Source: Alphaproteobacteria bacterium
GTDB taxonomy: Bacteria > Pseudomonadota > Alphaproteobacteria > UBA6615
DNA: 64,000 nucleotides
Reading direction: 5' to 3'
NCBI GenBank assembly: GCA_039980135.1
Contig: JBDXCV010000003.1
Coordinates: 806,001 to 870,000, forward strand
Shown here: piece by piece, positions 19,575-45,713 of the stretch
How positions within the stretch are numbered: position 1 is the stretch's first letter
Layout: each line of letters starts with the position of its first letter
Program-made: the position numbers and the translations under genes
Notes under the pieces: generated by a model
Told to the model about the DNA's origin: nothing
Database searches by the model: none
The model's input: only the letters and a program-made list of their open reading frames with translations

Positions 19575-20810
19575 ATGGTCCATTTGCGCGAAATGCCTGA
19601 TCATCTGCGCGATGCGCTGATCAATCAGGAACTGCCCGAATATGGCGACACGCCATGGGTCACGCCCAAGCCGCTGAACGAATGCCGGGTTGCGCTGATT
19701 TCGACCGCCGGCCTGCATCGCCGCGAGGACGATCCGTTCACGCCGGGTGCGGGCGATTACCGGATCATCCCGGACGATTACGACATGGACGATTTGGTGA
19801 TGAGCCATGTGTCGACCAATTTCGATCGCAGCGGTTTCTACCAGGACGTCAACACATCCTTTCCTTTCGATCGTCTGAAAGAGCTGGCCGATGAGGATGT
19901 GATAGGTTCGGTCGCGAGCCGGCACTTTTCCTTCATGGGGGCGACGCCGCCGACGGTGATGGAGCCGATCGCGCGCGACCTCGCGAAGGTTCTCAAGGCG
20001 GACAATGTCGACGCTGTCGCACTGGTCCCCGTCTGACCCCAATGCACGCGCGCCGTGGGCGGGCTTGCACATTATCTCGAAGAAGAAGGCATTCCGACGA
20101 CGCAGATCGCGCTGATCCGCAAGCATGCCGAGGAAATCAAACCGCCGCGTGCACTCGCGGTACCCTTCGAACTCGGCCGCCCCCTGGGCGGGCCGAACGA
20201 GCCGGACTTCCAGCGCCGCGTGCTGCGTGAATGCCTGGAGCTACTGGAACGTGAATCGGGCCCGGTGCTCGAGGACTTCCCCGACGACCCACCGGGAGCC
20301 GATGTGGAACAGCCGGAAGGCTGGGCCTGCCCGGTCAACTTCGCCGCGCCGATCGAGGATGTCAGCGATCAGGAGCTTCTGGAGCAGACCCTGCTGCAGG
20401 AAGTCGCCCTGCTGAAGCCCTGGTATGAAGAGTCCAAACAGAGCCGTGGCGGCCGGACGAATTACGGGATATCGGGCAAGGCACCCGAGGAAATTCCGGC
20501 TTTTCTGGCCAGTCTCGTGGTGAACCGCGAAGACACAGCATCACCGATCGAGGGCAAGCCGGCGGCGTTGGCCTTCAAGCATATGGCCGACGATATCCGC
20601 TACTACTACATGGAGGCGGCGATTGCGCGGCCCGATGGCCGGGTCACCGATCTCGATATCGGCAACTGGCTGTGGGGCGAGACGACCCTGGGCAAGGTGC
20701 TCGTCGAGATCCGCAACTGGGCGATGGAGAGTGAAGATAAGGGCTTCAAGGCTCTGTCGGTAACGGCCATTGTTCCCACCCATCAGCGCCACCGCACGGC
20801 CCACGGCTGA
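19575..20810 (+). CDS. GrdB-like selenoprotein (glycine/sarcosine/betaine reductase B family), in-frame UGA
   Basis: A 411-residue protein read through UGA at 20034-20036 as selenocysteine 154. Codons before and after the UGA are in one frame, and both halves belong to one family. The redox motif is V-U-P-Q-C-T-R-A-V-G-G, a UxxC pair (Sec154, Cys157), placed after VDAVALVPV as in GrdB/PrdB proteins. A hairpin begins 7 bases after the UGA. The gene faces selD and tRNA-Sec. In clostridia GrdB reduces glycine or betaine with partner subunits GrdA and GrdC/D; none are seen here, so the reaction is unknown. Start ATG follows GAGGAG. Conventional annotation would split it at 20036. Confidence 0.93.
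20043..20069 (+). promoter_or_regulatory. Candidate SECIS hairpin of the GrdB-like gene
   Basis: TGCA pairs with TGCA at the base; then come a C/T mismatch, two GC pairs, a G/G mismatch and CGCC/GGCG closing a GTG loop. The loop starts 19 bases after the UGA, within the spacing SelB needs. It was found by hand-folding, not computed. Confidence 0.6.
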
Positions 20811-20899: not shown

Positions 20900-23122
20900 T
20901 CAGGCCGGGTCCGTGAAACTGACCACGCCGACGGTTCCCCGCCGCGGGGTCACCCGCCCGATGATGGCGGCATCCGGCGCGGGACCGGCGCGCAATTCCG
21001 CGAGGCAGGCCTCGGCCCGGTCGGCGGGCAGGCCAAACAGCAAACCACCTGCGGTCTGCGGATCGAACAGCAACGGAAAACTCGGATGCGCGGCCAACGG
21101 CACGGCGTTGCCGACGGATTCCTCGTTGCCCGGCCGAAGGGTGCTCTCATGGCCCAGCGCCACCAGTTTCACGACCCCCGGCAGGATCGGCAGCGCGTCG
21201 AGCATCATTTCCGCATCGACGCCCGAGGCGTTGAGCATCTCCAGCAGATGGCCCGCGAGCCCGAATCCGGTGACGTCCGTGCCCGCCGACGCGCCGTATT
21301 TGCGGATCACGGGAATACAGGGCGCGATGGAGCGCTGCATGGATTCGAACGCGGTTGTCACGTCATCGCCATTGGCCTTGGCCCGCATGTCGGCGGCGAA
21401 CAACACGCCGGTGCCGAGCGGCTTGGTCAGGATCAGCGTGTCGCCGACCGCAAGGCCGGACTTGCGCAGGATCGCGTCGCGGTCGGCATAACCGTTGATG
21501 GTCAGGCCGAAGGCCATCTCGGCACCTTCGCCCGTGTGGCCGCCGGCCAGTACGGCCCCGGCCTCGGCCAGGGTCTCGGTGGCGCCGGCCAGCAGTTGGT
21601 ATAGATCGTCGGATGTCTTGTCGTCCTCGCCATGGGGCAGCATGACGGCGGCGAGCGCGGAATGGGCCTCCGCGCCCATCGCGAAGATGTCACCGAGGCA
21701 ATGGTTTGCGGCGATCCGGCCGAACAGATACGGGTCGTCGATGAAGGCGCGGAACTGATCGACCGTCTGGATCAGCGCTTTGCCCGGCGGTGGTGTGAGC
21801 ACCGCGGCGTCGTCGGGTGAATCCAGCCCCTGGTCGAGACCGTCCTTGTGCTGGGGCGGCAGGCGGTCCAGCGCGCGACGCAGGACCGGGGCGGGGACTT
21901 TCGCACCACAGCCGCCGCAGCGCATGGCCTCGAGCGCGTCGTCACCGTCGGCGCCGTCCGCGTCCATCTCGGGCAGTTCCTGATACTTGGCCATCCAGCG
22001 CCGGTCGATCCAGTCTTTCCAGCGCCACACCCAGGCGCCTTCCAACGCGAACGGGCCGCGCGCGGCGATGGCATAGCGGTCGCCGGTCGTGATCAGGGCG
22101 AGGGTCTGGCCCTGGGGGCGATAGGCCTTGAGCGGTCTGCCACGCGCGGCGCGGCGGAGGTTGTCGGCCAGATACGGACCCTGGCGCACGGCATACACGC
22201 CCGCCTTGGGCAGCCGGTGACCATCCATCGACGCGGCGTCGCCTGCGGCGAAGAGCCGGGGGTGGGAGGGCGAGCGGAGCCGGTCGTCGACCCGGACGAA
22301 GCCGCGATCGTCACGGGCCAGATCGGTATCGGCAAGCCAGAGGGGTGGCCCGGCGGATGTCACCAGAATCGTCTTGTCGCTGGGCAGGCTTTGCCCGTTC
22401 GAGATGTGCACCGCATCGGGCGTGACCCGTTCGACCTTCACACCCGTATGCACGGCGATGCCCCGGTCGGACAGCGCGCGGGTGAGCTTGCGCCGCGCGG
22501 CGGGGTTGTAGCCGGGCAGGAGCGTGTCCTCGGCCTCGACGATCGCAAAGTGAAAATCCGATGGTGCCTTGCCCAAACCGATCGCGGCGGCCCGCAACCG
22601 GTGACTGAGGGCCAGGGTGAGCTCGACCCCCCCGCCGCCGCCGCCGGCGATCGCGATATGGAACGGGCCGTCATGGCCGCGAATCTCCCCGGTCAGCCGG
22701 TGATAGGCCTCGAGGAATCGATCGATGGGTTTGACCGGCAGCGCGTGTTCCGCACCGTCGATATGGGTCGTCGCGGGGGTCGAGCCCGTGTCGATGGAGA
22801 CAAAATCGAATGCCACGGGGGGACGCCCCGCGACCTGGACGTAATTGTTTGCAAGGTCGAGCCCCGTCGCGGCGGCGTGGATGACGCGCGCGTTGGCGAA
22901 GGCGGCCAGCGGCCGCAGGTCGATATGCGCTTCGGCCTCGCTGTAATGGTCGGCGATGTAACCCGGGATCATGCCCGAATAAGGGGTCAGCAGGTCGCGG
23001 GTGATCAGGGTGAGACGCACCCCCGGTTCGGGCTTCATGCCGAACCGTTTGAGGACCGCCACATGGCTGTGGCCGCCGCCGACCAGCACGATGTCGGAAG
23101 TGATGGGAACCGTCGGTGTCAT
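20900..23122 (-). CDS. selD: Bifunctional FAD-dependent NADH dehydrogenase-like / selenide, water dikinase (SelD)
   Basis: A 740-residue fusion. Residues 1-385 form a pyridine nucleotide-disulfide type flavoprotein: IVLVGGGHSH for FAD, IAIAGGGGGGVEL for NAD(P), and FAAGDAASM near residue 293. Residues about 395-740 are SelD: RCGGCGAK holds the catalytic Cys405 and Lys408, followed by DDAAVL and GGHTGEGAEMAFG. SelD turns selenide and ATP into selenophosphate, the selenium donor for Sec-tRNA and selenouridine. The flavoprotein part may supply reduced selenium; this fusion is known from several proteobacteria. The active-site residue is Cys, not Sec. It starts 63 bases after tRNA-Sec on the same strand. 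Confidence 0.96.
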   Translation of the reverse strand: MTPTVPITSDIVLVGGGHSHVAVLKRFGMKPEPGVRLTLITRDLLTPYSGMIPGYIADHYSEAEAHIDLRPLAAFANARVIHAAATGLDLANNYVQVAGRPPVAFDFVSIDTGSTPATTHIDGAEHALPVKPIDRFLEAYHRLTGEIRGHDGPFHIAIAGGGGGGVELTLALSHRLRAAAIGLGKAPSDFHFAIVEAEDTLLPGYNPAARRKLTRALSDRGIAVHTGVKVERVTPDAVHISNGQSLPSDKTILVTSAGPPLWLADTDLARDDRGFVRVDDRLRSPSHPRLFAAGDAASMDGHRLPKAGVYAVRQGPYLADNLRRAARGRPLKAYRPQGQTLALITTGDRYAIAARGPFALEGAWVWRWKDWIDRRWMAKYQELPEMDADGADGDDALEAMRCGGCGAKVPAPVLRRALDRLPPQHKDGLDQGLDSPDDAAVLTPPPGKALIQTVDQFRAFIDDPYLFGRIAANHCLGDIFAMGAEAHSALAAVMLPHGEDDKTSDDLYQLLAGATETLAEAGAVLAGGHTGEGAEMAFGLTINGYADRDAILRKSGLAVGDTLILTKPLGTGVLFAADMRAKANGDDVTTAFESMQRSIAPCIPVIRKYGASAGTDVTGFGLAGHLLEMLNASGVDAEMMLDALPILPGVVKLVALGHESTLRPGNEESVGNAVPLAAHPSFPLLFDPQTAGGLLFGLPADRAEACLAELRAGPAPDAAIIGRVTPRRGTVGVVSFTDPA

Positions 23123-23185: not shown

Positions 23186-23281
23186 TGGCGGAAGAGGGTG
23201 GGAGTCGAACCCACCAGGCACGTCTAACGCCCCTCACCGGTTTTGAAGACCGGGCGCCCCACCGGGGAACGGTCCTCCTCC
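23186..23281 (-). tRNA. selC: tRNA-Sec (anticodon UCA)
   Basis: 96 bases including the encoded CCA end. The acceptor stem has the extra-long 8 base pairs of selenocysteine tRNAs (GGAGGAGG with CCTCTTCC, one G-U pair), then the discriminator G. The anticodon loop is CTTCAAA with TCA at 23244-23246, closed by CCGGT/ACCGG. A long variable arm (about GGGGCGTT to ACGTGCC) and a T-arm GTGGG-TTCGACT-CCCAC follow. Together these exclude tRNA-Ser or a nonsense suppressor. It decodes UGA with SelB and lies directly upstream of selD. Confidence 0.97.
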
Positions 23282-23420: not shown

Positions 23421-24044
23421 CTAACGGGATACCCCGATCAACCGGTCGCGCGTGACGAGGGATTCCAATTCGGATGCAGTGCGCGAGCATGGGTCTTCGG
23501 GTGGTTCGGGGAGAACGAGGTAGCGCATGTCTGCGTTGCTGTCGTGGACGATCAGTTCCACGGTTTCGGGAAGATCGGTGCCGAACTCGGCGAGCACGTT
23601 GCGCGGTTCACGCACGGCGCGGGCGCGATAGGCCTTGGAGATATACCAGGAGGGAGGCTGACCGAGGATCGACCGGGGGTAGCAGGAGCACAGGGTGCAC
23701 GTAATCAGATTGTGCGTGTCCGCCGTGTTCTCGACCACGACGATCTGTGCCTCGCCAACACTGATTCCGATCTCGCCGATCGCCTGTTTACCGTTCTCCA
23801 GCAACCGTGCCTTGTATTCTGGCTCGGCCCAGGCCTTGGCAACGATCTTTGCGCCCAAATGCAGACCGGGTGATTCGAGCTTTTCAATTTCCTTTACCAC
23901 TTCCGGCGCTGTGAGGAGCCCGCGCGCGATCAGGACGGCCTGCAGCGCATCGACGATGATCTGGCCCTCTAGATTGCCCGCCTCGTCCTCGACGACGAGT
24001 GCTTCGTGATCGTCATGCTGATGATCATGGTCATGGTCGGTCAT
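23421..24044 (-). CDS. scnC: Thiocyanate hydrolase gamma subunit-like / nitrile hydratase alpha family
   Basis: A 207-residue metal-binding catalytic subunit. The claw motif C116-T-L-C119-S-C121 is the cobalt form (iron enzymes have CSLCSC). It is followed by Y-P-R124: thiocyanate hydrolase of Thiobacillus has Arg at this site, while nitrile hydratases usually have Trp. The KAYRARAVREPRNVLAEFG segment supplies the Arg pair that contacts the modified cysteines' partner subunit. A His/Asp-rich N-terminus (DHDHDHQHDDHE) may bind metal. It is the last gene of a six-gene operon with an ABC importer. Expected reaction: thiocyanate plus water to carbonyl sulfide and ammonia; a nitrile hydratase role is the alternative. 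Confidence 0.83.
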   Translation of the reverse strand: MTDHDHDHQHDDHEALVVEDEAGNLEGQIIVDALQAVLIARGLLTAPEVVKEIEKLESPGLHLGAKIVAKAWAEPEYKARLLENGKQAIGEIGISVGEAQIVVVENTADTHNLITCTLCSCYPRSILGQPPSWYISKAYRARAVREPRNVLAEFGTDLPETVELIVHDSNADMRYLVLPEPPEDPCSRTASELESLVTRDRLIGVSR

Positions 24045-30241: not shown

Positions 30242-30712
30242 TTATTTTCGGGAATCGTAGAAATTTACCATCTTGACCACGTCGCCCGCATCGATCCGGC
30301 CCAGCGGGCCGTCGCTATAGGAGCATGCGACGACGTTGCCGTCGGCACCGACGATGAATTCCGAGGGCTGGATGATCTGACGGCGGTCTTCCCAATAGGC
30401 ACCAAGCGTGTCGGCGATGTCACGCGACACGCCGAATCCGACCGGGAAATTCACCTCGTCCGCGACTTCCTGGGCCTTGTCGATGGGATCGACGCTGGCC
30501 GCGACAACCGACACACCCAGTTTGTCAAATTCGTCCTTAAGTTCTGCAAAGCCGACCAACTGACGGCGACAATAGGGTCACCAGTGGCCGCGATAGAACA
30601 GGATGACCCGATAACGCGTATCGAGGCCATCGGGCAGGCTGAGCGTTCCGCCGCCGACGAGGTCGATCGTCAACTTTGGGAAGGCCGAACCGATGCCGAG
30701 TTTCTCTGACAT
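30242..30712 (-). CDS. Peroxiredoxin-like selenoprotein (AhpC/TSA fold), in-frame UGA
   Basis: A 156-residue protein read through UGA at 30578-30580 as selenocysteine 45. The motif is Y-R-G-H-W-U-P-Y-C-R-R-Q-L: the Sec takes the peroxidatic position, and Cys48 makes a UxxC pair. Both flanks are in one frame and both are peroxiredoxin sequence (VILFYRGHW before; LVGFAELKDEFDKLGVSVVAASVD after). It should reduce peroxides with thioredoxin or a similar reductant. The start at 30712 is supported by GAAGGAAACGG; translation stopping at the UGA would leave only 44 residues. It is a single-gene unit with a leader hairpin and its own terminator. Confidence 0.94.
30551..30567 (-). promoter_or_regulatory. 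Candidate SECIS hairpin of the peroxiredoxin gene
   Basis: GCCG/CGGC, a T/T mismatch, one C-G pair and a 5-base AGTTG loop that starts 17 bases after the UGA. The stem is short and the call rests mainly on position; it is the weakest of the three hairpins. Confidence 0.4.
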
Positions 30713-30734
30713 TCCGTTTCCTTCACTAGAAAAT

Positions 30735-30750
30735 GCGCCGAATCCGGCGC
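30735..30750 (-). promoter_or_regulatory. Leader hairpin of the peroxiredoxin gene
   Basis: GCGCCG and CGGCGC form a perfect 6-base stem with a 4-base loop, 22 bases before the start codon. It may limit translation initiation or mark the end of the promoter region. No known riboswitch class is recognised. Confidence 0.35.
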
Positions 30751-30894
30751 GGATCACATGAATATCGTGCACAAAAGCGGGCTGCGCCGCAATCGACACA
30801 TCGCGCTTGGCCTTGTCACCCCTGCCTGATGCATTGTAAGTCTTATGCAAGCGTTTTCGTAAAACCGCGACCGAATACGGGCAGGGGAGCCATC

Positions 30895-34780: not shown

Positions 34781-34805
34781 GGCCGGGTCTCGGTTCGACC
34801 CGGCC
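34781..34805. terminator. Hairpin between the BON gene and selB
   Basis: GGCCGGGTC, 7 bases, GACCCGGCC: a 9-base perfect stem between converging genes, touching the selB stop codon. No T-run follows on either strand. Confidence 0.55.
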
Positions 34806-36715
34806 TAGGCGCCGAAGACTTCGGCCACGGGGCGTACCTGGTGGCGCGCATTCCCGTCGCGCCGCGACAGTCCGACACGATCGAAATATTCCAACACCTC
34901 GACAGCGAGATTCCGGCCGATGCCGGCCTGCTGGCGGAACGGGGAGACGCCCACGGTCCCGTCCGCCGCGATCATCGCCTCGAATGTCTGCGCGTGGACA
35001 CGCAGCGCAGCCGGGGTGAAAAACCTGTTCTCCGCGATTTGCACGGCGAGGCCCATGCGCACGGCCTGGCGCAGGGTCTTGCCGACCCCGTTGACCGGAA
35101 GGCCGGAGGCCTGGGCGAGATCATGCACGACCGGCGGGCTATCGGGGGTCTCGTTCAGTAGGGGCAGAATGATGTCCCAGCGCTTGGCATCGTCGCCGGT
35201 CAGGCCCGGCTGATGGTCCGGGCGATGCAGCAGCATGCCGTCGCTCGACAGGGTCTTGTCCGCCACGAGCCGCGCGGTGATGGCGTCGAACAGGGGTTCG
35301 GGGATGTAGCGGCCCAGGCTCTTGCGCAGCTGGGCTGCCGCGGGCCCGAGCCGGTCGGGGTAGCGCGTGTGGAACTGGTCGAGCGCCGCCAGCAACTCGT
35401 CCTGGCGGGCCGCCCAGATGTCCGGCGAAAGGGCCAGGGCTGAAGCGTCGTCGCCCGTGACGACCGCGGCGGTGGATTCCAGTGCCGCCGCCATTTCGGC
35501 GTTGGTCAGGTTGCGGGCCGCAGAAAAATCCGCGACCGATATGCCCGTGGGTGAACGCACAAGCGCGGCGGCGAGCGCCGCGATCGGATCCGCCGTGTCG
35601 AGTGCGGTGAGCAGATCCAGGCGTTCGGGCTTGGCGCGGCCCCGGCGCGGCGGATGCAGGTCCACCACATGGCCGCCGCCCAGGGTGATCTGCGCCGACT
35701 GGTCACGGATGACGAAACGGTCGTAGACGCAGGCCCCGACGGGCGCATCGAGCACCAGCTGGGCCAGCACCGAACTCCCCGGCGCGGCGCTGTCGGCCCC
35801 GAGAACGGCCACGCGGCCGGTGACGTTGCGGGCACCCAGATGGACATGCACCGGCGTCCAGTGACGCAGCGGACGTTTTGCGTCGGCGACCACATGCAGG
35901 CGCACATCGAGCTTGCGGTGCAGGCCGAGTGCGGGATCGGCGACGAGCCAGTCGCCGCGCACGATATCGTCCTTGTCCAGCCCCGCGAGATTGAGGGCGA
36001 GCCGGTCGCCGGCCTGTCCCGTCTCGCTGTCGGCGTTGTTGGCGTGAATGCCCCGGACCCGGACCTGGGTGTCGTGTCCGGCGATCCACAGCCGGTCTTC
36101 TTTCGTCACGGTGCCGGCGAACGCGGTGCCTGTGACGACGAGCCCGGCCCCGGCGACGGTGAAGACGCGATCCACGGCCAGGCGGAAATGGCCGTTGCCC
36201 GCGCGGGCCTCGGTCTCCGCGGCCATGTCGGCCACGCGTTCTTGCAAGTCGGCGATTCCATCACCGGTGATCGCCGAGACGGGAAAGACCGGCGCGCCGG
36301 CGAGCGAGGTCTCGCCGATAAGCAGTTCGATCTCGGCCTGCACCTCCTCGGCGCGTGCCGGGTCGACGCGGTCGATCTTGGTCAGCGCGACCATCCCGCG
36401 GGAAATGCCGAGGATATTGAGGATCGCCAGATGTTCCAGTGTCTGGGGCATCGGCCCGTCATCGGCGGCTACGACCAGCAGCGCACAGTCGATGCCGGTG
36501 ACCCCGGCGAGCATGTTGTGGACCAGGCGCTCATGGCCGGGCACGTCGATGAAGCCGAGGCGGGCGCCATTATCGAGGTCGGCATAGGCGAAGCCGAGAT
36601 CCAGCGTCATGCCGCGCTTTTTCTCTTCCGGCAGCCGGTCGGCATCGACGCCTGTCAGCGCCTTCACCAGCAATGTCTTGCCGTGATCGATATGGCCCGC
36701 GGTCGCGACAATCAT
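34805..36715 (-). CDS. selB: Selenocysteine-specific translation elongation factor SelB
   Basis: A 636-residue GTPase that brings Sec-tRNA to the ribosome at UGA codons followed by a SECIS hairpin. The G-domain shows GHIDHGKT (residues 7-14), [13 protein letters not shown], and TKIDRVD. EF-Tu-like beta-barrel domains follow to about residue 340, then a C-terminal winged-helix array ([26 protein letters not shown] onward) that binds the hairpin. The length is normal. The ATG overlaps the selA stop (ATGA), so selA and selB are translated together. Its presence supports reading the three in-frame UGAs in this window as Sec. Confidence 0.97.
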
Positions 36716-38118
36716 GGCGTTGGCAGTTCCTTGAGTTGGGCGCGGAATTCATCCGCGTTGTCGAGACAGCGCAGGTCGAGCCAGAGCGCATCGTCATGGA
36801 CCCTGCCGATGACGGGAACCGCGAGCGCGCGCAGGCTCGCCGCGAGCCGCTTGAGCCGTGCGCCCTGGCCGCGCGGGGCGACTGGCCGGATCACCAGGGC
36901 GGCGCTGGCCAGGTTTTCGACCGGCAGGGCGCCGGAGCCGATCTGGCCGGCGCAGTCCGCCACCGACACCGTCCAGGCATCGCCCACGGTGTCGCGCATC
37001 GCCTCGATAAGCCCGTCAGCCTGCGCGCGGATGTCGGTCGGGGTTCGCGACAGCAGGCGCAGGGTCGGCAGGCTTTCGGCCAGCCGGTCGGGGTCGCGAT
37101 AGAGACCGAGCGTTGCAGCGAGGGCCGCGAGTGTGGCCTTGTCGCAACGCAGCGCGCGTTTGAGCGGGTTTTTCTTGAGTTTCGCGATCAGGTCGCCCCG
37201 GCCGACGATCAACCCCGCCTGGGGGCCGCCCAGCAGCTTGTCCCCGGAGAAGGTGATGATGTCGGCTCCCGCCGCCAGCGTCTCGCGCGGGGTCGGCTCG
37301 TGGGGCAGGCCCCAGCGCTCCAGATCGACCAGTGCGCCGGCGCCCAGATCGACGGCGAAGGGAATGTCGCGGGCATGGGCGATCGCCGCCAGCTGGTCTT
37401 CCGCCACATCGGCGGTGAAGCCCTGCACGACGTAGTTCGACGTGTGGACTTTCATCACACAGGCGGTCCGCTCGCCGATGGCGGCCTCGAAATCCTTCGC
37501 GTGGGTGCGGTTCGTGGTCCCGACCTCGACCAGCTTCGCCCCGGCGCGCGCCATGATGTCGGGAATCCGGAACGCGCCGCCGATCTCCACCAGCTCGCCG
37601 CGCGAGACGGGTACTTCCTTGCGCAGAGCCAGCGCGTTGAGCAGCAGCAGCACCGCGCCCGCGTTGTTGTTCACCACGGTCGCGGCCTCGGCGCCGGTCA
37701 GCTCACACAACAACGCCTCGACATGGACGTCGCGATCGCCGCGTTTGCCGCTATCGAGATCATATTCGAGATTGCTCGCGCCGCGCGCAGCTTCGGCCAT
37801 TGCCGTGATTGCCGCCTCGGCCAGAGGGGCCCGCCCGAGGTTGGTGTGCAGCACCGTGCCGGTCAGGTTAAAGACCCGGCGCAGCCCCGGCGTCGCGTCA
37901 CGTTCGAGCCGCGCCGCGGCGGTCCGGGCGAATGTCTCTTCGGACAGATCGACCCCGTCGCCGGCCGCCAGCGCCGCGCGCGCCGTGTCGAGCGCCGTGC
38001 GCAATGCCGCGACGGTCGCGCTGCGGCCATGGGATTCGGCGAGTGCAATCACCGCCGGCGCCTGCAAAAGGCGGTCGAGCGACGGGATGTCGGAGAAGTC
38101 GGGTCTCTGTTCGGCCAT
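36712..38118 (-). CDS. selA: L-seryl-tRNA(Sec) selenium transferase SelA
   Basis: A 468-residue PLP enzyme that converts Ser-tRNA(Sec) to Sec-tRNA(Sec) with selenophosphate. The N-terminal tRNA-binding region begins [13 protein letters not shown], followed by [16 protein letters not shown] and [12 protein letters not shown]. The PLP lysine is Lys294 in [15 protein letters not shown], matching Lys295 of the E. coli enzyme. It is the first gene of the selA-selB operon. selC and selD lie about 12 kb away in the same orientation rather than in this operon. Confidence 0.97.
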
Positions 38119-44556: not shown

Positions 44557-45177
44557 ATGCCGAATATCACCCTGCTTGATGTCGAAGAGCTGAAGAAAAC
44601 CAAGCTCAAACCGTATATCGAGAAATGCCTTGAGTTGCGTGCGCCGGACCCCGGCTTCCACGCCGTCATGGGCCACAACATCGACCTTGCCGAGAAGGCC
44701 TACCTTTTCTGGACCAAGGTTTTCAACGAGGGCAACCTCGACCACAAACTCAAAGAGGTTATTCGGGTGATGCTGTCGCGCATGGCCCATTGCAGTTATT
44801 GAGGCAATGTTCGATCTGCTTCGGCGAAGCGGGATGGACTTGACGAAACACTCCTCGATGACGGCATCAACAACCATGCGGATAGCACCGTCTTCACCGA
44901 TAAGGAGAAGGCGATCATGCGCTATGTCGAAATCGTGGCCACGGATTCGGATTCCTTCGGCGATGCGGAATGGGAGGACCTCCGGGCCCACCTGTCCGAA
45001 GACGAAATCGCCGAACTGGGGCTGTTCCTGGTCGGTAATCTGGGCTTCCACACCTTCTTCGGATCGCTTAAATTCTATCCGATGTTCTCGCCAGACGGCG
45101 AACTGGTGACTCAGGAAGAATCTGCGGCAATCTACGGCGCGACGCCGGGATCCCTGCAGAGCGAGGCGGCGGAATAA
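44557..45177 (+). CDS. AhpD-like (carboxymuconolactone decarboxylase fold) selenoprotein, in-frame UGA
   Basis: 206 residues with UGA at 44800-44802 read as selenocysteine 82. The redox motif is H-C79-S-Y-U82, CxxU in place of the CxxC of AhpD and other CMD-fold peroxidases or disulfide reductases. Codons on both sides of the UGA share one frame, and the region after it (NVRSASAKRDGLDET, IVATDSDSFGDAEWEDL) aligns without gaps with the paralogue that follows. A strong hairpin starts 13 bases after the UGA. It follows thioredoxin by 43 bases and overlaps the next start by one base (TAATG). A conventional caller would stop at 44802 after 81 residues. Confidence 0.94.
44815..44833 (+). promoter_or_regulatory. 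Candidate SECIS hairpin of the AhpD-like gene
   Basis: TCTGCTTC-GGC-GAAGCGGG: eight base pairs including two G-T pairs, loop GGC starting 21 bases after the UGA. This is the clearest of the three candidate SECIS elements. Confidence 0.68.
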
Positions 45178-45713
45178 TGTCGCGTCTTGCCCCCCTGGAA
45201 CTCGATCAGATCGAGGATCCCGAACTTCGTGACCTGACGGCGCAATGCGTCGAACTGGGTGTGCCCGATGAGCTGTTTCCGCGCATCGTCGCGCGCTCAC
45301 CCGGGCAGGCGAAGACGCTGCTGAGTGTGATGCTTGAATTGCATATACGCGGCAATGTCGATCACCAGCTCAAGGAAATCATCCGGATTCAGCTGGCGCG
45401 CTTCGTGGAAGATCCGTATTTTTCGGCCCTGCGCTCCAAGCAGGCGATGGATGCGGGACTGACCGAGGAACGCATCGATGCCGGTTGCGATGACTATGAG
45501 GATTCGGAGTTGTTCACCGAGACCGAGCGGATGGCGTTGCGCTATACCGAACAGTTGGCCATCGACCCGGAGAAGGTGGACGCGGCCTTCTACGAGCAGA
45601 TGCACGCGCATTTTACCGAAGCGCAGATCATCGAGCTCGGCACGTTCTTCGCGATCTATCATGCTGCTCATCTGTTTATGAAAACCCTGAACGCGCGGCC
45701 GCTCGCCGCCTAG
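45177..45713 (+). CDS. CMD-fold paralogue of the AhpD-like selenoprotein, lacking the redox pair
   Basis: 178 residues. It aligns with the selenoprotein upstream, without gaps over the first 82 residues (EGNLDHKLKEVIRVMLSR against RGNVDHQLKEIIRIQLAR). Cys79 is replaced by Asp79 and Sec82 by Phe82, so it cannot do the same chemistry. The start overlaps the selenoprotein stop (TAATG), giving tight coupling and probably equal amounts. AhpD-type proteins form oligomers, so this is likely a structural or regulatory partner. The operon ends at a strong terminator. Confidence 0.9.
   Translation: MSRLAPLELDQIEDPELRDLTAQCVELGVPDELFPRIVARSPGQAKTLLSVMLELHIRGNVDHQLKEIIRIQLARFVEDPYFSALRSKQAMDAGLTEERIDAGCDDYEDSELFTETERMALRYTEQLAIDPEKVDAAFYEQMHAHFTEAQIIELGTFFAIYHAAHLFMKTLNARPLAA

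Follow-up and report, generated by a model that had tools for sequence, protein, structure and literature searches.

In the window, that is, the whole 64,000-nucleotide stretch of contig JBDXCV010000003.1 analysed here (assembly GCA_039980135.1, Alphaproteobacteria, UBA6615), three adjacent genes form a cassette: a thioredoxin gene, a gene with an in-frame TGA for a protein of the carboxymuconolactone decarboxylase (CMD)/AhpD-like type, which we call Sec1, and a CMD-fold paralogue, P2 (Table 1). Translation through the TGA at 44800-44802 gives a Sec1 protein of 206 residues, 124 of them behind the UGA; the frame ends with the TAA at 45175-45177, which the start of P2 overlaps by one base (TAATG, 45175-45179). 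A preliminary description of this DNA had pointed out the C79-S-Y-U82 site in a CMD-fold protein and the 124-residue frame after the UGA, and both coordinates and frame proved to be as claimed; it was silent on the two flanking genes, for the thioredoxin and P2. Against PF02627 (CMD), the Sec protein scores 29.2 bits, above the gathering cut-off of 23.

The genes selA, selB, selC and selD all lie within the window. Together with three probable selenoprotein genes they make up a selenium island of about 26 kb (19575-45713). Besides Sec1, the second of these genes (19575-20810, forward strand) is PrdB-like, with an in-frame TGA in VPV-U-P-Q-C; it scores 120.7 bits against TIGR04483, below the cut-off of 300, and 27.8 bits against GRDB, above the cut-off of 22. 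The third (30242-30850, reverse strand) is Prx-like (AhpC-TSA, 76.2 bits) and carries HW-U-P-Y-C; it has matches in 16 of 24 genomes of the window's own family, each with at least one internal TGA. A nitrile hydratase alpha chain is encoded beside tRNA-Sec (23421-24044, reverse strand).

Table 1. Coordinates of the cassette, its selenocysteine site and the selenium machinery within the window.
Feature	Coordinates	Strand	Evidence
SelD as Ndh-SelD fusion	20900..23122	-	Pyr_redox_2, AIRS, AIRS_C; TIGR00476 284 bits, cut-off 125
tRNA-Sec (selC), anticodon TCA	23186..23281	-	tRNA prediction
SelB	34805..36715	-	TIGR00475 467.5 bits, cut-off 242.25
SelA	36712..38118	-	TIGR00474 583.4 bits, cut-off 267.9
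Thioredoxin of the cassette, active site C34-V-P-C37	44184..44513	+	PF00085 82.4 bits
Sec1, CMD/AhpD-like gene, 206 aa, C79-S-Y-U82	44557..45177	+	Profile, alignments
Cys79 codon, first residue of CxxU	44791..44793	+	C79 invariant in 30/30 aligned
UGA codon, almost certainly selenocysteine 82	44800..44802	+	TGA in 34/34 orthologous copies/fragments; Cys in 12/12 fetched distant relatives
SECIS-type hairpin, 7 pairs, apical loop GGC 44823-44825	44816..44832	+	Pair conservation, codon spelling, consensus fold
P2, CMD-fold paralogue without redox Cys/Sec (C79 to Asp, U82 to Phe/Ser)	45177..45713	+	Alignment, model

The UGA codon and the hairpin behind it

The UGA of Sec1 is retained wherever the gene was found. 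Within the family, 20 Sec1-type sequences occur in 18 of the 24 genomes, all 20 with one internal TGA, and the 14 metagenome-assembled genomes (MAGs) found beyond the family, mostly betaproteobacterial, all have Sec1 with one TGA. Counting loci that show one gene twice only once, TGA stands at codon 82 in each of these 34 orthologous copies or fragments (identity about 51-92%). For the Sec1 alignment, 30 copies were kept; one gene in two separate pieces (L060, genome G776) and three at contig ends (L061, L025 and L027) are left out of it and are counted for the UGA and the hairpin. TGA is the sole codon at position 82 in the aligned copies and is found in every copy that covers the site, and the residues directly behind it, G83-S87, are invariant. 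In five pairs of sequences, pN/pS is 0.15-0.48 behind the UGA and 0.05-0.29, hence somewhat stricter, in front of it. Purifying selection thus acts on the Sec1 frame behind the UGA.

The preliminary description had asked for an alignment of homologues with attention to a Cys at position 82. Such a Cys is present in all 12 distant relatives that were fetched (L038 and L081-L091), a group with the site CE[FY]CGNQRS of which one member, L038, shares 31% identity with the Sec1 protein. All 12 come from genomes that carry Sec1 too. These paralogues resemble Sec1 in the GN-x-RS behind the site and in the Arg at the relay position discussed below, but differ in having Cys at 82 and form a clade of their own (12 sequences, support 97). 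The phylum sample's three top matches outside the window's genome (L067-L069) likewise show CxxC, and UGA stands at exactly column 82 in eight further CMD genes, one of them (L096) in the window's own genome. Among the 34 copies or fragments of the Sec1 subfamily itself, no Cys form was found.

On these comparisons, UGA82 is almost certainly decoded as selenocysteine, making Sec1 a genuine selenoprotein gene. A reading of UGA as Trp or a changed genetic code is ruled out, because relatives have Cys at 82 and SelA, SelB, SelC and SelD are present. A chance open frame or a pseudogene is ruled out as well, since all 34 copies or fragments retain both frame and UGA and pN/pS behind the UGA stays below 0.5 in all five pairs. 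The same evidence leads us to reject a true stop, which would yield an 81-residue protein and a separate downstream reading frame from the ATG at 44917: both frames exist mechanically, but the invariant residues begin right after the UGA and the hairpin is under constraint, so that the chance of this reading is next to nil.

This hairpin, of the form C[CT][GA]CTTC-GGC-GAAG[CT][GA][GA], begins 13 nt after the UGA and places the first G of its loop 21 nt behind it. Across the 34 Sec1 copies, 236 of 238 stem pairs are formed, in six versions of the stem, and an RNAalifold consensus of 24 sequences recovers the hairpin, including one pair in which both partners are exchanged. Codon spelling gives a further line of evidence: among 94 conserved degenerate columns in the 30 sequences, A88-S89-A90-K91 are the only ones written with a single codon (counting sequences with the majority residue; L023 has Thr at 88), the mean same-codon fraction over the conserved degenerate columns being 0.52, and codons 88-91 make up the upper hairpin. 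The fold of 44800-44845, which is longer than the core hairpin as its pairs extend outward, reaches -15.5 kcal/mol (z -2.24), and 4 of 200 shuffled sequences fold as well. The strong hairpin of the preliminary description is accordingly real, but we judge it so by its conservation, that is, by the formed pairs and the single spelling of codons 88-91, and not by folding energy, which taken alone is only moderately better than that of the shuffles. A comparison with Rfam gave nothing above threshold and, below it, only a match to a snoRNA on the other strand. In our best explanation, the hairpin would help to decode UGA82 as selenocysteine.

SelB scores above cut-off in 20 of the 24 family genomes, and all 18 genomes with Sec1 have SelB (in G023 as two pieces). 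The four family genomes without SelB above cut-off (G010, G012, G014 and G020; 74-93% complete) all lack Sec1, and two further genomes, G005 and G013, have SelB and no Sec1. If the genomes are taken as independent and complete, the probability of this co-occurrence is 0.0014. Among the 14 other MAGs, SelB is above cut-off in 12; the remaining two (G764 and G766) gave no SelB above it, perhaps owing to their incompleteness. In two genomes, selB and the Sec cassette are no more than about 2 kb apart (G763, contig C11; G009, contig C45).

Fold, relatives and earlier descriptions

An AlphaFold model of the Sec protein built with 30 sequences (pLDDT 85.1, pTM 0.78) is almost wholly helical and places C79-S-Y-U82 at what is predicted to be the start of a helix. 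The best PDB matches of this model in Foldseek are Atu0492, 2prr, PA0269, Bmp8 and an alkyl hydroperoxide reductase of Deinococcus radiodurans (E about 1e-5), while Mycobacterium tuberculosis AhpD (1gu9) is a poor structural match (E 0.5). Among the sequences of solved structures, Bmp8 (6ohi) matches best (7.6e-12), with Atu0492 nearly equal (1.8e-11). AhpD-like proteins are often hexamers and PA0269 is a weak H2O2 reductase (PMC3141380). The D. radiodurans structure 6k40 is probably that of the protein whose mutant is sensitive to H2O2, and in D. peraridilitoris three ahpD genes have additional trxR and trx genes beside them or close by (PMC8945050).

In the NCBIfam models of the named groups closest to it, the Sec protein stays below the curated cut-off. 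For TIGR00778 (ahpD_dom) the score is 19.7 bits against a cut-off of 27.8. Both the Sec protein and P2 match best, among the NCBIfam models, to TIGR01926, peroxidase-related enzyme (41.7 and 25.3 bits, cut-off 81.8), and NF053654, YciW-related (seleno)protein (38.3 and 55.9 bits, cut-off 310), all below the curated cut-offs. NF053654 nonetheless matches all 30 members of the Sec1 alignment at E 0.001 or better, with 6.3e-20 as the best value.

The relay described for AhpD consists of Glu118-Cys130-His132-Cys133-His137 in M. tuberculosis and of Glu36-Cys48-Tyr50-Cys51-His55 in PA0269 (PMC3141380). The Sec protein shares with both the helical CMD fold and the places of Glu, CxxC and Tyr/His, which correspond to E67, C79, Y81 and U82, but differs in having Sec for the second Cys and Arg86 for the relay His, so that the strict pattern Glu-Cys-(His/Tyr)-Cys-His is broken at its last member. 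The label AhpD-like given in the preliminary description consequently holds for the fold and four of the five relay residues and fails for the His. Arg86 is invariant in all 30 Sec1 sequences; since the 12 Cys paralogues have Arg too, it marks a wider group and not selenocysteine. With Arg86 at the place of the relay His, the mechanism published for AhpD would need some change to apply here. Selenocysteine does stand at the second Cys of CxxC, as had been noted; the available text did not confirm that this is the place of the peroxidatic Cys, and PMC3141380 names both cysteines as catalytic.

Selenoproteins of this general sort have been described for two decades. From the Sargasso Sea, 27 sequences of CxxU AhpD-like selenoproteins and 4 called 'CMD domain-containing' were reported in 2005 (PMC1088965). 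In 2008, the GOS survey counted 299 and 70 AhpD-like selenoprotein genes, which places them among its larger selenoprotein families, and listed 902 Cys homologues for AhpD-like 1 (PMC2398784). The proteins appear in reviews of 2022 and 2026 (PMC9312934, PMC13188914). In their available text, these accounts assign no tested function to the AhpD-like proteins, and the review of 2026 describes the pair of Prx-like and AhpD-like proteins as being of unknown function. The preliminary description had marine metagenomes as their main source, but they are not confined to the sea: the titles of our MAGs include groundwater and Lake Baikal, and AhpD-like 2 is said to be commoner in non-marine samples (PMC2398784).

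The Sargasso Sea and GOS proteins AhpD-like and AhpD-like 1 (COG2128) are, like the Sec protein, of AhpD type, with CxxU in which Sec replaces the second Cys and a SECIS-like element behind the UGA. Compared by motif alone, the Sec protein has the CxxU of GOS AhpD-like 1. Compared by description, the two differ in that Cys homologues exist for GOS AhpD-like 1, whereas none was found in the Sec1 subfamily. In their available text, the GOS and Sargasso Sea accounts of AhpD-like proteins and the two reviews mention neither a thioredoxin nor a redox-dead partner. Likewise, the accessible literature on AhpD-like, CMD and YciW selenoproteins, a search with most subscription papers outside its range, yielded no description of a cassette of thioredoxin, Sec-CMD and redox-dead CMD. 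We therefore call the Sec protein one of a long-known sort, the CxxU AhpD-like proteins, and take the subfamily with its two partners as a new form of that sort.

Partner genes and their distribution

Neither redox residue of the site survives in P2, though it does contain cysteines at other positions. In the alignment of 28 P2 proteins (two at contig ends, L053 and L061, are left out, and L019 lacks the gene), K66, E67, R70, D79, R86 and S87 are invariant, with either Phe or Ser at position 82. At 18.5 bits against PF02627, P2 misses the cut-off of 23, but its model (pLDDT 94.9) has CMD/AhpD-like folds as best PDB matches. In a quick tree, Sec1 (30 sequences) and P2 (28 sequences) each fall on one side of a branch, with support of 98 and 99; as long branches meet among the outgroups, we use this tree only for the clades of Sec1, P2 and the Cys paralogues. 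Across the 398 genomes of the phylum sample, P2 scores 301 bits at its own locus and 62.6 bits at the highest-scoring place of all other genomes, with up to eight candidates scored per genome.

Gene order was compared in 31 genomes, 17 of the family and the 14 others, with one locus per genome; G015 is left out of this count as both its Sec1 copies lie at contig ends. P2 stands behind Sec1, meaning that it follows next and at most about 150 bases away, in 28 of the 31, the misses being the two contig ends (L053 and L061) and G017. A thioredoxin, defined by a tblastn match to that of the window at E 1e-8 in a flank of 0.7-3 kb (window: 5 kb), stands in front of Sec1 in 21 of the 31 (16 of 17 in the family and 5 of 14 elsewhere). 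The cassette is thus found in both the alphaproteobacterial family and the betaproteobacterial MAGs. Since thioredoxin lies within the searched flank in only 5 of the 14 latter genomes, this partnership is not fixed, and since G017 keeps the Sec gene without P2, P2 is not indispensable. Comparison with its sister genome G016 suggests that G017 (L019), with one Sec1 and no P2, arose by a deletion between two Sec1 copies. In G016 itself (L021/L026), two Sec1 copies flank P2 in the order Sec1-P2-Sec1', and their second halves are nearly identical, which raises the question of gene conversion.

The active-site residues C34, P36 and C37 of the thioredoxin are invariant in all 20 aligned sequences. 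Against TIGR01068 the protein scores 81.2 bits, short of the cut-off of 96.8, while two other places in the same genome pass it (125.3 and 107.6 bits). For this reason the cassette thioredoxin, divergent in sequence, looks private to the cassette.

Sec1 occurs in 5 of the 385 genomes of the class sample, all from the window's own family, and in 1 of the 398 of the phylum sample, the window's own; plasmids gave no match at E 1e-8. The 14 other MAGs (L047-L060) came from a contig scan with exact 8-residue patterns of the Sec protein, which reaches near relatives only. All these searches cover other phyla thinly. Eleven of them are titled Burkholderiales or Betaproteobacteria. The other three (L055, L057 and L059) are titled Klebsiella pneumoniae, Devosia equisanguinis and Bordetella parapertussis and are probably mislabelled MAGs; we take these titles as unreliable because the tree places their Sec1 and P2 together with the sequences of the 11 titled as Burkholderiales or Betaproteobacteria.

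Proposed function and further UGA-bearing genes

The features above lead us to propose that the cassette encodes a selenoenzyme which is fed by thioredoxin, probably reduces peroxides and has a sister subunit that is redox-dead; as a whole, selenocysteine decoding included, we consider this reading more likely than not. We infer the substrate, the electron donor and the hetero-oligomer. With help from E67, Y81 and Arg86, the U82 selenolate would attack a hydroperoxide or another electrophilic substrate. C79 would then resolve the selenenic acid to a selenenylsulfide, which the cassette thioredoxin would reduce. P2 would join the Sec protein in a mixed ring or dimer and supply structure or part of the substrate pocket. 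A selenolate would need no His for its deprotonation, and the Arg could hold it. Such a recurrent operon points to a probable electron donor and a probable partner in a complex, and the function thereby becomes testable. In addition, the subfamily provides a natural example of Sec with no Cys counterpart, and of a selenoenzyme that has a pseudo-enzyme as its companion.

A more specific version can be put forward tentatively, as a possibility that we hold for somewhat less than an even chance. Here the cassette would encode a heteromeric selenoenzyme in which an AhpD-fold Sec subunit without any Cys form, a redox-dead sister (Asp79, Phe/Ser82) that always accompanies it and a private thioredoxin work together, one cassette being common to an alphaproteobacterial family and uncultured Betaproteobacteria. 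Its substrate would be one that the Cys enzymes of the fold handle poorly, such as an organic hydroperoxide or a halogenated aromatic compound. No neighbouring gene names a substrate. The TRAP (DctP), cupin and molybdenum hydroxylase genes, along with amidohydrolases, were weighed as clues and dropped; these neighbours are common only to near relatives, and we therefore infer no substrate from them.

The Sec protein could instead be an AhpD-type adaptor that passes thioredoxin electrons to a peroxiredoxin, perhaps the Prx-like Sec protein of the selenium island, without touching peroxide itself. Electrons flow in this manner in M. tuberculosis, from NADH through Lpd, DlaT and AhpD to AhpC (PMC12028322), and the Prx-like gene is about 14 kb away, with matches in two thirds of the family genomes (16 of 24). 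This gene lies outside the cassette, however, and the two do not keep company strictly: G002, G003 and G009 have Sec1 without a Prx-like match at E 1e-20, and G013 has the Prx-like gene without Sec1. We consider an adaptor unlikely.

Still less probable, in our estimate, is a reductive dehalogenase like Bmp8, with Sec acting as it does in iodothyronine deiodinases, which use this residue (PMC7144113). Bmp8 is proposed to remove bromine by oxidising its cysteines to a disulfide (PMC5577590). This debrominase (6ohi, 6ohj), the best match among the solved sequences, shares with the Sec protein the fold, the place of CxxC and a similar MG-x-N-x-D-L-A stretch. In Bmp8, the Cys that attacks the substrate stands first in the CxxC; in the Sec protein, Sec takes the second place, where Bmp8 has Cys. 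Moreover, Atu0492 scores about as well in sequence, Foldseek puts Atu0492, 2prr and PA0269 ahead of Bmp8, and the annotated neighbours include no halogen or bromopyrrole-pathway gene. We keep the dehalogenase as a competing reading only.

Other CMD genes with in-frame TGA codons accompany Sec1. In the 14 other MAGs, 27 TGA-bearing CMD sequences were counted besides Sec1; of the eight that were fetched, seven have UGA at the second Cys (including L092-L095, L098 and L099), and the eighth, L097, is a P2 gene with its TGAs at other places, it seems because the match extends beyond the stop of the gene itself. Several of these further genes are followed by sequence that folds into hairpins. In the window's genome, outside the window, L096 (G000:C3:588900-591000, gene at about C3 589905-590303) is a CMD gene with the site CNHU.
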